Position numbers and translations under genes: made by a program. DNA of 64,000 nt from Sorangiineae bacterium MSr12523 (GTDB taxonomy: Bacteria; Myxococcota_A; Polyangia; Polyangiales; Polyangiaceae), in the NCBI GenBank assembly GCA_037157775.1, contig CP089982.1, positions 7,343,501 to 7,407,500 on the forward strand, read 5' to 3'. Below the pieces are notes generated by a model. That model saw only the letters and a list, made by a program, of their open reading frames with translations, did not search any database and was not told the origin of the DNA. Below, in pieces: positions 9,293 through 22,982 of this stretch; positions within the stretch are counted from its first letter, which is position 1, and every line of letters starts with the position of its first letter.

Positions 9293-11169
9293 GATTCGAA
9301 CTTCCCGATGGTCGCGCACTCCATGTCATTTCATCGAAGGGGCAAGTCTCGTTCGTGGATGGCGCATTCGAGCTTTGCGGTGTATTCGGCGCCGAGGACG
9401 CGGCCATCGAACTCGCAATCGAGCATCCCTTTGCAAACGCGAAGCACGTGTGGGTTCCCCATCTCACGCCCGAGGAAGGCTATGTCATGGGCGATGCGAT
9501 TTTCCGGTCGCCGGCCATCGTGCTCGCCGACGATGCGCTGGCGCTGGCCTTCGTTCCCGATTTGGACGATGTGCGCGATGTGGCCAACGCCGGCGCTTAC
9601 CGCGTTTGGCTCGATTGCGACCACCCGCGACGAACGGTGACCATGGCCGCAGGCGCTTACCGCGAAGAGGGGCACGTATTTTATGTCCGTGAACATGCCC
9701 GCGCCGAGGGATGCGCCGTTGGAATGCGATTGCACCTCGTGGCAAGCTGCGAGGCGCGCGATTGCGCAAATCCGTATGGCATGGTGGCACGCTGGATGTG
9801 GAATCGGTGGGGCCGCCCCGGCATGACACGCGCCCACGACCTCGCGCCGCTCTTGCGGCACATCGTGCACTGGGCTTTCTCGCAAGACGGCTGGGCCGAG
9901 AGCGTATGGCAAAGCATCGACGAGCGTGCGGCCGCCCCCGTGTTCATCGTCGACGTGAGCCGCCATCCCTCGATTCCGCCGGAGCAGCGGCGCTGGCGCG
10001 AGCCGCGCAGCATCTGGAATCAAGCGTGGTTCTCCACGCAACGCTGCGCCAATGGACTTCTGCGTCATGCGCGCCAAACGGGATCGGCGGATCTGGAAGA
10101 CCGCGCGCGCCGCATGACGGAGGTTGCGCTCGCCGCACCCCAGCACAATGGCCTTTTTCCCTCGAGGATCGTGGCCGACGCCTCGGGCACGTGGCGTTGG
10201 TCCAATTCCGATCGACGGCCAGCCTCCGCATCGGAGGACGCGTGCCATATCGTGGATGCGGCGTTCACCGGCCGCATGCTCCTCGAGTGGCACGCGCTCA
10301 CCGGCGATGCGCGGGCGCGCGATTACGTGCTTCGCTTTGCCGAGAGGCTCGTCGCGTTGCAGCGGCCGAGCGGCGCGTTTCCCGGCTGGGTGGAGCCCGA
10401 TGGTCGTATTCCCACCGAACTCGCGGAGGGCCCCGAATCCGCCGTTTCGGTGACATTGCTCCTCGAGCTCGCGCGCACGACGAGCCATGCGGCATGGGAA
10501 AAGGCCGCGCTGGCCGCCCTGCCCTTTCTCGAGGATGTGGCGCGCGAAGGTCGCTGGGAGGACTTCGAGACGTATTACTCGTGCGCCCCCTGGGGTGTTC
10601 CCGGCCAACGCGTGGCTCGCAATGGCGTGTACAAGCAGAACACGCTGTCGATCGCTTGGTGTGCGGCGGCCTTTTTCGAAGCATGGCAGACCACCCAAGA
10701 AGAGCGCCTGCTCGCACTGGCCCGTCGCTGCATCGATGAATTGTCGCTGTATCAAGCGGTATGGAATCCGCCGTTCTTGCCGGCCCCCGCCCACGGCGGC
10801 TTCGGTGTGATGAACGCCGACAGCGAATGGAATGACGCCCGACAGAGCCTTTTTGCGCCGCTCTACTTGGAGCTCGGACGCGCCACCGGCGATCGAGAGC
10901 TCACCGAGCGCGGAATCAGCGCGCTGCGCGCTTCGTTCAGCATGCTCTATTGTCCGGAGAATGCCGCACTGGCACGCGCGTACGAAAAGCGTTTTCCCTT
11001 TTTCGGCCCCGAGTCGTACGGCTTCATGATGGAGAATCAAGCCCACTCGGGCGCCGAGCCCATTGGGACATTCACGATTTTCACTTGGGGAAACGGCTCG
11101 GCGCTCGCCACGGCGGCGACGGTGTATGACCGGTTTCCCGAATTGCGAACGGAGTGTGGCCTCCTATGA
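9289..11169 (+). CDS. Predicted carbohydrate-active (alpha/alpha)6-barrel protein, specificity unknown
   Basis: 626 residues, no signal peptide. The first ~180 residues are beta-rich (RFELPDGRALHVISSKGQ, GYVMGDAIFRSPAIVLADD). From about 240 on there are regularly spaced helix pairs with aromatic and acidic loops (SIWNQAWFSTQRCANGLL, TGRMLLEWHALTGDARARDY, RPSGAFPGWVEP, GPESAVSVTLLLELA, YKQNTLSIAWCAAAFFEAW), the pattern of (alpha/alpha)6 toroid glycosidases, lyases and epimerases. I cannot assign a CAZy family. It is translationally coupled to the permease before it and to the enzyme after it (ATGA overlaps on both sides), so the three act in one process. Confidence 0.6.
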   Translation: MRFELPDGRALHVISSKGQVSFVDGAFELCGVFGAEDAAIELAIEHPFANAKHVWVPHLTPEEGYVMGDAIFRSPAIVLADDALALAFVPDLDDVRDVANAGAYRVWLDCDHPRRTVTMAAGAYREEGHVFYVREHARAEGCAVGMRLHLVASCEARDCANPYGMVARWMWNRWGRPGMTRAHDLAPLLRHIVHWAFSQDGWAESVWQSIDERAAAPVFIVDVSRHPSIPPEQRRWREPRSIWNQAWFSTQRCANGLLRHARQTGSADLEDRARRMTEVALAAPQHNGLFPSRIVADASGTWRWSNSDRRPASASEDACHIVDAAFTGRMLLEWHALTGDARARDYVLRFAERLVALQRPSGAFPGWVEPDGRIPTELAEGPESAVSVTLLLELARTTSHAAWEKAALAALPFLEDVAREGRWEDFETYYSCAPWGVPGQRVARNGVYKQNTLSIAWCAAAFFEAWQTTQEERLLALARRCIDELSLYQAVWNPPFLPAPAHGGFGVMNADSEWNDARQSLFAPLYLELGRATGDRELTERGISALRASFSMLYCPENAALARAYEKRFPFFGPESYGFMMENQAHSGAEPIGTFTIFTWGNGSALATAATVYDRFPELRTECGLL

Positions 11170-16513: not shown

Positions 16514-17674
16514 TCACCACGAGTCCGGCGTAATCGACTGGCCGATGAAACGGGACTCGAACTCGTCGAAATCGCCCGAGAGACGACGCCATCGAAGCTC
16601 CCCGCGAACGTCTTCCGAGTACATGAGGCTCGGGGGGTCGAGGCGATAGTCGAGTGCGATCATGCGACCGTCCATATTGCTCGCCAGGACAAGCGTGCGC
16701 TCCTCGTCGAGGCAGCCACTCGCGTCCTTGTCGAAACCCAACCGGCGCTTTTCATCGGCACCCAATGCGCGAAGCCGCAGGATTTCGGCTTCTATTTCCG
16801 AGGGCGACAAGAAAATATCGAGTTCGCGGGCCCACCCCGTGGCGCATAAGAGGCGAGTTCCGTTCAGGAGCCCGGGGCGCCAACGATTCTCGCGGATTGA
16901 AGCGATGAAGCACTCCGGCAAGGGAAGGCCCAAAATGCGTGGGTGAGTATGGGGCAAGTTCGTTGCCCAAGGCACGACCTCGACCGAATGTGCATGGATG
17001 CTTCGGGCGGGGCCAATCCCCCCGCGTTGATCGACAATCCAGAGACCTTGCACACGAACGCGCGTCGGACGGTCCGGTTCCGGGTGGCCGGGCGGGAACA
17101 CCAGGATACTGCCCGATACGAAACTGGGCGCTTCGTGAGCGCGCTGCCAGCGCCCTTCCACGGCGATCAAGGAGCCATGGTAACGATGCGGATTGCTCGA
17201 GAGTTCTGCCTCGGTCGGGGTAAGCAGGGGACCGAGCGCCCGCGGAAGGGCCAAACGAGCACGGAGGCCGATAAGAAGCTGCTCGGCCGTCGTGGCATCC
17301 CACGGGCCGAGCCAAACGTGCCTCGTCGGCGGGCAGGCGTGTTGGACGACGACGGCGACTCCATTCCGATAGTCGCGCAGCATGGCGTCTCCTGCGAGTG
17401 CGGTCGCCATGCTGAACTCGATGATGGTGCCGAGGGTGCATCCTGCGGGCGTCTCCGGTGCGCTCGCCGTTCCGATGTGGGGCCCCGCCTCCAACAGCGT
17501 TTCCAGGTGCTCCGTGGGGTCCGCGACCGACGAATGAGCGATGGGCGAAGGCCAGCATACGTTCAGGAGGCCGCCCTCGGTGATCCAGGCTGCACACGTG
17601 TCCGTGAGAAGAATCGGTTCGAGCGATTCACGAGCCAAGATTCGTTCGACACGAGTGCGAAAGTCGGGGTCCAT
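16514..17674 (-). CDS. SMI1/KNR4-like domain protein of unknown function
   Basis: 386 residues, no signal peptide. The N-terminal two thirds are unrecognised (TDTCAAWITEGGLLNVCWP, TLGTIIEFSMATALAGDAML, a central HPRYHGSLIAVEGRW-like beta region). The C-terminal ~110 residues fit the SMI1/KNR4 pattern: a helix (LSPSEIEAEILRLRALG), then ERTLVLASNMDGRMIALDYRLDPPSLMY and a closing DFDEFESRFIG helix. SUKH/SMI1 proteins are often immunity proteins against secreted nuclease or deaminase toxins. No toxin gene is adjacent, so that role is only a suggestion. Confidence 0.55.
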   Translation of the reverse strand: MDPDFRTRVERILARESLEPILLTDTCAAWITEGGLLNVCWPSPIAHSSVADPTEHLETLLEAGPHIGTASAPETPAGCTLGTIIEFSMATALAGDAMLRDYRNGVAVVVQHACPPTRHVWLGPWDATTAEQLLIGLRARLALPRALGPLLTPTEAELSSNPHRYHGSLIAVEGRWQRAHEAPSFVSGSILVFPPGHPEPDRPTRVRVQGLWIVDQRGGIGPARSIHAHSVEVVPWATNLPHTHPRILGLPLPECFIASIRENRWRPGLLNGTRLLCATGWARELDIFLSPSEIEAEILRLRALGADEKRRLGFDKDASGCLDEERTLVLASNMDGRMIALDYRLDPPSLMYSEDVRGELRWRRLSGDFDEFESRFIGQSITPDSW

Positions 17675-20857: not shown

Positions 20858-21179
20858 AGATTCGTCGCCGAATGGCGTCCCACGAAGAGAGAACTCCCAG
20901 TTCCCTATGGCTCGACGAGAGCCAAATACCATTCAGCCGAAGCTGCACAATCGCGTTCTGCCGTGCACATCGGTGATATTCGGCGCATCCCGCCACGATG
21001 AACACGGTTGCGGTTTGGCGCCGTGGGACAAGCGTTCGGCGCGGGCGAACAAGTGCACCGGACTCACGATGTGTTACTTCAAGCGCGCATCATACCGTTG
21101 CGAAGATGGCCGATTGACGCGCACGAATTTCGTGCGCGAGCTCTCGCTCTTCGCAACTTTGGTTGAGCGCAGGATCCGT
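20858..21179. other. 322-bp stretch without a recognised gene
   Basis: The downstream coding frame is open through this stretch, but the added residues show no similarity to RNA polymerase and lack a ribosome site, so I treat it as a leader region. No hairpin or palindrome stands out. Confidence 0.4.
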
Positions 21180-21935
21180 ATGTCATTTCCAATACAGAGT
21201 TTTTCCGAATACCCCAGCACGACCTTGAAACACGTCGTGCTTTCCCCCATCGACCAGGATGCACTTCCGAGCTACGCGCCCGGTGTCGTGAGCAACATGG
21301 CGACATATACGACGGCGGACCTTCGTCCGGCGGCGGGCGGACTGTTCGACGAAGGCATCTTCGGTCAGCCGAACGGCTCCGATGGTGAATCGAATGACGA
21401 CGTGCTCGTTTGCGGTCCGCGGACGACCCGCTTCGGTCGGATCACCCTCGCCGAACCCGTGCCTCATCCACTCGTGCACGGTGTCTTGCTTCTCACCGTG
21501 CCGGTTCTGCCTGCGGATCTGCGGCGGGTCGCCCTTCAACGAGGGCAGCTCGTCCTTGGAGATCTCAACCGGCTTTATCTCGAAGTCCTTCGTTACAATG
21601 CGCGGATCGTTCGACTGCGGAAGCTCGGCATTCCGGATGCGCTCGATATGATTGCGCTCATCCGCAAAGAGTTGGCCCGAGCCGTGGCAGCGCTCATGAA
21701 GAACGAGCGGCTCGAGGACCCCGTGCGGGACGAGTCGGGGCGCGTCCTTACTTCCTTGTCAGGCTCCCTCAAGCCAAGTGTCGCGGAGGCGCTCGGCATG
21801 CTGGACGAATGCGCGATCCATGGCGCGATGCTCGGCGGACCGCTCCCCATGCCCGTGCACCGGATCGTGGCAACGCTGATTGCCATGGCGCTCGAGGTTC
21901 GGTCGAAGAACGGCACGATCCTTCGGCTTCATTGA
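21180..21935 (+). CDS. Mini RpoC-like protein: RNA polymerase beta' N-terminus plus clamp coiled coil only
   Basis: 251 residues from the ATG at 21180. Residues 15-65 match the start of beta' (LKHVVLSPIDQDALPSYAPG against IKIALASPDMIRSWSFGEV in E. coli; then GGLFDEGIFG against DGLFCARIFG). RFGRITLAEPVPHP matches RMGHIELASPTAHIW. Then LLLTVPVLPADLR matches LTVLPVLPPDLR, and LGDLNRLYLEVLRYNARIVR through AVAALMKN matches the clamp coiled coil. SGRVLTSLSGSLK matches the entry to switch 2, where similarity stops. Three of four zinc-ribbon cysteines and about 130 residues (beta' ~112-240) are absent, as is all catalytic sequence. It cannot polymerise RNA; a regulatory decoy is possible. Confidence 0.78.
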   Translation: MSFPIQSFSEYPSTTLKHVVLSPIDQDALPSYAPGVVSNMATYTTADLRPAAGGLFDEGIFGQPNGSDGESNDDVLVCGPRTTRFGRITLAEPVPHPLVHGVLLLTVPVLPADLRRVALQRGQLVLGDLNRLYLEVLRYNARIVRLRKLGIPDALDMIALIRKELARAVAALMKNERLEDPVRDESGRVLTSLSGSLKPSVAEALGMLDECAIHGAMLGGPLPMPVHRIVATLIAMALEVRSKNGTILRLH

Positions 21936-21974
21936 ACCTGTGATGCTACCAATTCCTCGATTTCGAGGGGTGTC

Positions 21975-22982
21975 ATGAAGTTTCCTGTCATCGCCGCCAA
22001 GGTGATGCTCGAAGGCTTTCATGCACTCGGCCTCGACACCGAATTGATCCGCGAAAGCGCTGGGATCGACGCGAAGGCCCTGGCCGATGTCACGGGCCAT
22101 CTTCCTGGGACGAGCTTCGGGCAGATGTGGGCGTGCGCGTTCGAGGTCGTGGGACGCGATTCGCTGGCCGTGGAGGTTGCACAAAACCTGCCTCTCGGCT
22201 CGGTTGGCATTCTCGATTACTTGTTCGCGTCGGCCAATTCGGTTGGCGCTGCGCTGGACGTCGTGAGTCAGTATTTCGGACTCGTGACCGAGCAAATCTC
22301 TCTCGAAATCGAGCGCACCCTGGGACGTCTTTGGATCCGCGTTCGCAACGACGCAAAGCTCGACGCGTACGAAGTGAGTGACGAGCTCGCGCTGAGTTGG
22401 ACGCTCCGCCGCCTGCACGAATTCGCCGTTGTCCCCCCGAAGCTCATCGAAATGAGCCTCACACGCAAGTCCGTGACCGACGTGGCGAACTGGGAGCGCC
22501 TCCTGGGAACGAAGATCCGCTTTGGAAGCCTCGTTTCGGGCATTTGCTTCACCGCCGATGCCGCCGACATTCCGCTGAAAACGGCGGACCCTCGTTTGCA
22601 GCTCATCCTGCGTGGCGTGCTTCCCGAATTCAGCGGAAGTACGCCGTCGCAACTGCTCGTCGTCCGGGCCGCCGTGCGGAATCTGCTGCGAAAGGCGCAG
22701 CTGAGCGAGGCCAATCTCGCGCGAGAGCTGTCACTCTCCGTGCGTTCTCTTCAGCGCCGCTTGCAGGAAAGCGGATCCAGCTACCGAACCCTCGTCGAGG
22801 ACGCGCGGCATGAAGAAGCGATTCGCATGCTTTCGTCGACCGAGTATTCCCTGGCCGAGATCGCACACGCTCTCGGATTTCGCGAACACGCGTCGTTCAC
22901 CAAGGCATTTCGCCGCTGGACGGGGCTGTCTCCGTCGGCGTGGCTGCAAGAGAGGGCTCGTCTTGCGCCGCAATCGCATTGA
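21975..22982 (+). CDS. AraC-family transcriptional regulator (Arabinose_bd/OruR type)
   Basis: 335 residues. The N-terminal ~190 residues match the Arabinose_bd-type sensor domain (LIRESAGIDAKALADVTGHLPGTSF, GSVGILDYLFASANSVGAAL, FAVVPPKLIEMSLTRKS). Residues 240-330 hold two helix-turn-helix motifs (LARELSLSVRSLQRRLQESG and LAEIAHALGFREHASFTKAFRRWTGLSPSAW). It starts 39 bp after the RpoC-like gene and may be co-transcribed; it then probably controls that gene or senses a small acid or amino-acid-like ligand. Confidence 0.9.
   Translation: MKFPVIAAKVMLEGFHALGLDTELIRESAGIDAKALADVTGHLPGTSFGQMWACAFEVVGRDSLAVEVAQNLPLGSVGILDYLFASANSVGAALDVVSQYFGLVTEQISLEIERTLGRLWIRVRNDAKLDAYEVSDELALSWTLRRLHEFAVVPPKLIEMSLTRKSVTDVANWERLLGTKIRFGSLVSGICFTADAADIPLKTADPRLQLILRGVLPEFSGSTPSQLLVVRAAVRNLLRKAQLSEANLARELSLSVRSLQRRLQESGSSYRTLVEDARHEEAIRMLSSTEYSLAEIAHALGFREHASFTKAFRRWTGLSPSAWLQERARLAPQSH

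Follow-up and report, generated by a model that had tools for sequence, protein, structure and literature searches.

A stand-alone RNA polymerase clamp mimic in a Sorangiineae bacterium and its Myxococcota relatives: candidate docking decoys

Introduction

The subunits of RNA polymerase (RNAP) are usually treated as parts of one enzyme. Among the systems closest to the gene described here, anti-sigma factors form a functional class that withholds a sigma factor, and Young and colleagues are said to have found, in 2001, that an isolated coiled-coil fragment of E. coli β′ acts on sigma70; a further dock, that of sigma region 4, is the flap-tip helix. We analyzed a 64,000-nucleotide stretch of the genome of Sorangiineae bacterium MSr12523 (contig CP089982.1, positions 7,343,501 to 7,407,500; hereafter the window, whose first letter is position 1), in which a gene for a protein of 251 amino acids (aa; 21180..21935, + strand, stop codon included) resembles the N-terminal part of RpoC, the β′ subunit, and retains the helical hairpin of the β′ clamp.

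We propose that the product of this gene is a catalytically dead clamp mimic that acts as a docking decoy, with a sigma factor as the most probable partner, and we give this interpretation a probability of about 45%. The gene has relatives in other Myxococcota genomes. The family is varied and apparently previously undescribed, and no report of such RNAP mimics was found in the open-licence literature that we searched; we regard its members as a new kind of protein whose function is hypothetical.

Results

Homology of the window protein to RpoC

The only Pfam family recognized in the window protein was PF04997 (RNA_pol_Rpb1_1; expectation value (E) 2.7e-14, 53.7 bits against a cut-off of 39.7). 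Its NCBIfam matches were confined to models of RNAP subunits, all far below their own thresholds; the rpoC_TIGR model (E 1.7e-13) gave 49.3 bits against a threshold of 963.5, as a fragment would score. The best chain in the PDB was a β′ (E 1.6e-10). The initial annotation had described a stand-alone clamp mimic collinear with the N-terminus of RpoC, a description that holds; the significant PF04997 match disposes of the concern, raised there, that profile searches might reveal no RpoC similarity.

The homology falls into two pieces. The first (residues 15-96; 21222..21467) corresponds to the start of the β′ N-terminal domain and was matched separately, on PF04997 profile positions 3-82. The second (residues 103-198; 21486..21773) was found with both PF04997 and the PDB chain and corresponds to E. 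coli β′ ~238-332, the PDB-chain match itself aligning residues 102-198 to positions 237-332. Profile positions 83-206 are absent, equivalent to approximately residues 116-236 of E. coli β′ (about 120 residues), in good agreement with the gap of ~112-240 originally claimed. The protein contains two cysteines and lacks the CxCG..CxxCG zinc ribbon, three of whose four cysteines had been noted as missing, and the catalytic motif NADFDGD, present in the host RpoC, is absent. RpoC homology stops near E. coli position 332, and since we take switch 2 to comprise residues 330-349, this element is missing from the window protein; the loss of the C-terminal part had thus been rightly recognized, but switch 2 had been counted among the retained elements in error. 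The C-terminal 53 residues (199-251; 21774..21932) have no RpoC match and resemble the tail of the nearest relative, L036.

The two-helix clamp coiled coil is retained, as annotated, in the form of a hairpin (residues 128-175; 21561..21704) equivalent to E. coli 264-309 but longer by two residues at its tip. The alignment reproduced the residue calls made earlier: R275Y and E295I (E. coli numbering) are changed, and R278, R281 and A302 are kept, as are L282 and L285.

A family of RNAP look-alikes in Myxococcota

We searched four overlapping sets of genomes (handles G000 to G588), of which one consisted of 59 relatives and the others were taken from the order (183 genomes), the class (317) and the phylum (377), followed by closer looks at 20 and then 18 chosen genomes. 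At phylum level the broad profile A5 was swamped by genuine RpoC proteins, and this search served solely to choose genomes for closer inspection. Family counts are lower bounds, with at most the best 15, 14, 9 and 6 candidates per genome scored in four of the sweeps. At least 39 non-RpoC relatives were found in 29 Myxococcota genomes (L114 reaches a contig end and L127 has unread bases); two further members, in G157 and G159, stand outside the 39, and L205, the beginning of a genuine RpoC truncated at a contig end, was left out. Most members occur in Polyangia-like relatives within the class, and five genomes lie outside it (G322, G331, G350, G567 and G573). Outside the phylum, one scan of genome contigs gave two loci, both long RpoC frames. 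In genomes of family f36 (e.g. G320 and G329) RpoC was matched in two pieces of approximately E 1e-34 each, which may reflect a lineage-specific insertion or split.

Neither NADFDGD nor NADxDGD was present in any of the 39 members, and the four-cysteine zinc-ribbon pattern occurred in 18. Clamp-only members include the window protein, L036, L040/L081, L112 and L035/L039. In other members the clamp is accompanied by tetratricopeptide repeats (L119, by Pfam, E 7e-4; L117 similar by eye), by a part that appears by eye repeat-rich (L125, L203) or propeller-like (L131, L196, L198), or by an alpha C-terminal domain (L118). A clamp protein at L078:1795-4221 (- strand) matches SUFU weakly at its C-terminus (E 0.0023, below the cut-off) and immediately follows a histone-deacetylase-like gene. 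Two other unusual relatives are L199 and the β-containing L201.

Nine members (L077, L080, L113, L126, L129, L130, L200, L202 and L204) are single-chain chimeras without the catalytic motif, which combine the flap and C-terminal parts of RpoB, the N-terminus of RpoC and, in eight cases, the C-terminal domain of RpoA (over the Pfam cut-off in all but L113). The β domain Rpb2_6 and PF04997 each exceeded the cut-off in the same five chimeras (L077, L113, L126, L200 and L202); the evidence for RpoC in L080, L129, L130 and L204 is weaker and consists of the zinc-ribbon pattern, together with NCBIfam RpoC matches in L080. Some chimeras fuse the C-terminus of β to the N-terminus of β′.

Retention of sigma-contacting residues

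Eight clamp residues of β′ contact sigma32 in the holoenzyme, as described in an excerpt of PMC10216364, and an excerpt of PMC8321222 reports that changes at positions 275, 295 and 302 impair formation of the E. coli holoenzyme. Across 30 members, the eight contact positions were kept at a frequency of 0.667, compared with 0.449 at the other hairpin positions (permutation p 0.0125, a modest value from a test that ignores kinship and fold constraint); four near-identical orthologues and five hairpin-less chimeras had been dropped. Individual members keep between 8/8 and 2/8 of these contacts.

At the flap tip, residues E898, K900, L901, I905 and F906 are given as sigma32 contacts in the excerpt of PMC10216364. 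Over a 13-residue flap-tip stretch, the nine chimeras shared 105 of 117 positions (90%) with the host RpoB, compared with 263 of 626 aligned positions in the flanks, a count drawn from local alignments that were not centred on the motif; counted by columns, the values were 90% and 30%, from rows delimited by a pattern that had been devised with the motif already known. In the true RpoB used for comparison (L034 only) the helix reached 92% and the flanks 60%. A loose flap-tip pattern was present in 11 of the 39 members; the other frames at the same loci, 635,464 residues in all, contained it once. The 11 include L198 (6380-8224, - strand), in which the lone flap-tip-helix-like stretch (LTPEEKLLAAIFAKDE) lies far from a recognized β part.

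Selection and descent

Synonymous differences per site (pS) exceeded non-synonymous ones (pN) in all seven related pairs, which, at the sequence level, show purifying selection; the fear that the fragment might occur only as a decaying pseudogene can be set aside. For the window gene and L036 the values were pS 0.75 and pN 0.36 (p 6.7e-21). The other pairs gave pS/pN of 0.23/0.048 (D), 0.19/0.025 (C), 0.22/0.077 and 0.33/0.159 (g15), 0.41/0.164 (chimera) and 0.49/0.258 (short). The ratio of non-synonymous to synonymous rates (dN/dS) was 0.18 for D (0.04, 0.13 and 0.16 in three neighbours), 0.115 for C (0.09 and 0.13 in neighbours), and 0.32 and 0.41 for the g15 pairs (0.06 and 0.10 in two neighbours). 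Against purifying selection stand two decayed copies of the window type (A-type) in G002, at L037 ~9443-9652 and L038:5958-6356. Both copies lie near response-regulator-like sequence, the one in L038 approximately 2 kb before an AraC gene.

A quick tree was built from 56 rows (30 RpoC, 23 clamp-type and 3 chimeras); it placed all RpoC rows, two of them from other phyla or of unknown origin, on one side of a branch with a Shimodaira-Hasegawa-like approximate likelihood ratio (SH-aLRT) of 99. The window protein grouped with L036, L112, L040 and L081 (SH-aLRT 95), in a clade with members in other families of the class. Support was weak at half of the inner branches, and many mimic branches were long. 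Because the tree sets the RpoC rows apart, recent local duplication of host rpoC is an unlikely source of the mimics, which may or may not share a single origin.

The host genome and the surroundings of the window gene

The host, a soil-type bacterium, has a large genome of one 13.4-Mb contig, in which a 1461-aa frame approximately 2.5 Mb from the window gene contains the true RpoC match. A profile search of the genome returned the window mimic, RpoC in two pieces, a second, more diverged clamp mimic (D, 234 aa; G000:C1:10620623-10621324, L035:9624-10328) and one further match with an E of 0.45. The counterpart of D in G002 (L039:10004-10708) shows 91% identity, and in both genomes an IclR regulator lies 33 nt after the gene. 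D-type proteins were found in at least 4 of the 183 genomes of the order, one of them weak and inside a chimera. Among the matches listed, the closest relative of the window gene is a single gene (L036) of one other genome of the genus (G002), and a third genome of the genus had only RpoC.

Among the best 150 of 189 candidates, the host genome contains at least 82 matches to sigma region 2, at least 81 of them over the cut-off, compared with one NusG gene in a PF02357 search (on the strand of the RpoC match and ~7-8 kb away from it), and for this reason a sigma factor is the better guess for the partner. Titration of a special NusG/RfaH paralogue, the other target named in the initial annotation, was rejected as a candidate, since this search revealed one NusG gene and no special paralogue; ordinary NusG is a possible target. 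The suggested sigma target gains support for the family, in which docking residues are retained, and is weaker for the window protein, in which R275 and E295 are changed.

The window gene starts with ATG, preceded by AGGA (21171..21174, + strand), a possible ribosome-binding site. Its frame is intact, with a third-position guanine-plus-cytosine (GC) content of 0.72, and stays open upstream to 20817; a Pfam scan of this extension gave no match. An AraC-type regulator (Arabinose_bd + HTH_18; 21975..22982) follows 39 nt downstream on the same strand, as had been annotated, and the gap between the two genes (21936-21974) contains a short inverted repeat (CCTCGATTTCGAGG). No anti-sigma family was found among the Pfam matches of the window proteins. 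A 386-aa frame at 16514-17674 (- strand) has a match below the cut-off (E 0.033) to SMI1/KNR4, a family known from toxin-immunity settings.

In an all-against-all comparison of the neighbours predicted by a simple gene caller within ~6 kb at 30 loci, the largest neighbour family, protein-kinase-like, occurred near five loci at varying distance; the other groups comprised at most three loci each, and several were orthologous neighbourhoods. The neighbours decide nothing between the readings discussed below. A mobile origin was considered and rejected, with no plasmid match and one weak phage match (37.8% identity over 33% of the query) to an unannotated record. The five viral-contig loci (L132-L136) all encode long β-β′ proteins, two of them of 2244 aa; two carry NADFDGD, two NADYDGD, and one is cut by the contig end before the motif.

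Discussion

According to our proposal, the mimic, free of RNAP, would expose its clamp hairpin, and this would bind a factor whose normal docking partner is RNAP. The most probable such factor is a sigma factor, and it would thereby be withheld, stored or competed for. The docking-decoy proposal builds on the RpoC homology, the missing parts, the lack of the catalytic motif, purifying selection and the retention of sigma contacts, from which we infer sigma binding, the partner and the outcome. For the Myxococcota class of RNAP impostors as a whole, the odds are about even that they are decoys which divert sigma factors or soak up hostile proteins that bind RNAP; in that case the largest would be a single chain of docking surfaces (flap-tip helix, zinc ribbon, often clamp helices, and alpha C-terminal domain) and the smallest clamp-only.

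Several observations weigh against the proposal. The window protein keeps only 4/8 sigma contacts, R275 and E295 being among those lost, and L036 keeps 3/8, L040 and D 4/8 each; the changes may reflect either a special partner or a loss of binding strength. The contact test takes no account of kinship or fold. The hairpin is undetectable in five of the nine chimeras, L199 keeps 7 of the 13 flap-tip positions, and no flap-tip helix could be aligned in L201. An AlphaFold2 model of the window protein, built from a 5-row alignment, is poor (predicted local distance difference test score 38.6), and the helical hairpin that it contains (residues 126-148 and 154-177) is predicted with low confidence. 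No conserved neighbour emerged at the 30 loci, and because the AraC proteins near two related copies in G002 share only 26-31% identity with the one that follows the window gene, the AraC neighbour may be incidental.

A different kind of decoy is conceivable, although we consider it less likely: the mimics could protect the real RNAP by capturing phage inhibitors or competitor toxins directed at the clamp, at the flap tip or at the alpha C-terminal domain. Such a role fits the patchiness of the family, exemplified by the D-type proteins, nearly as well as the proposal of a sigma decoy does, and is consistent with the fast evolution of the g15 pairs relative to their neighbours and with the varied fusions, including that with the weak SUFU match. 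On the other hand, PADLOC gave no match for the window protein and none in seven of the eight members tested; in the eighth, the alpha C-terminal domain matched PglW weakly (E 2.6e-5). Moreover, Pfam recognized no toxin or defence gene in the scanned part of the neighbours, and the retained surfaces also serve normal factors.

It is improbable that the window copy is a functionless relic, even if the wider family may function. The two broken G002 copies, the changed key contacts and the single close relative within the genus would agree with decay, but the frame of the window gene is intact and has the GC content given above, its differences from the G002 relative are predominantly synonymous, the non-RpoC tail is common to L036, and the well-supported clade reaches other families of the class. 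Least probable of all is a regulatory RNAP partner that joins or replaces part of β′, or binds subunits, during assembly: the collinearity with the β′ N-terminus and the β-β′ fusions of some chimeras would suit it, but most of β′ is missing, active site included, and no finding here points to subunit assembly.

A natural protein family in which RNAP docking surfaces persist apart from the enzyme would mean a further level of transcription control, or of conflict, in bacteria whose sigma factors number in the dozens. Each dock has been mapped at single-residue resolution, and the spread of members from 8/8 to 2/8 retained contacts amounts to a natural variant series. There is also a bearing on annotation, in that profile matches of such genes point to RNAP subunits.

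Compared with RpoC, the window protein contains pieces of the N-terminal domain and the clamp-helix hairpin in the same order, but it is only ~250 aa long, lacks region 116-236, the zinc ribbon, switch 2 and the active site, and is encoded away from the rpoBC locus; judged from its sequence, it is not a member of RpoC, from which active site, zinc ribbon and length all separate it. The phage β-β′ RNA polymerases (L132-L136) are relatives of the same domain, but they are long proteins that carry NADFDGD or NADYDGD in four of five cases. The E. coli coiled-coil fragment shares with the mimic a free clamp hairpin and indicates that sigma docking without the enzyme is feasible; it is a laboratory fragment with its contacts intact, whereas the mimic is a natural gene. 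The proposed effect of the mimic, withholding a sigma factor, would be that of an anti-sigma factor if our reading is right, with the difference that the protein doing the binding would itself copy a dock of the polymerase.
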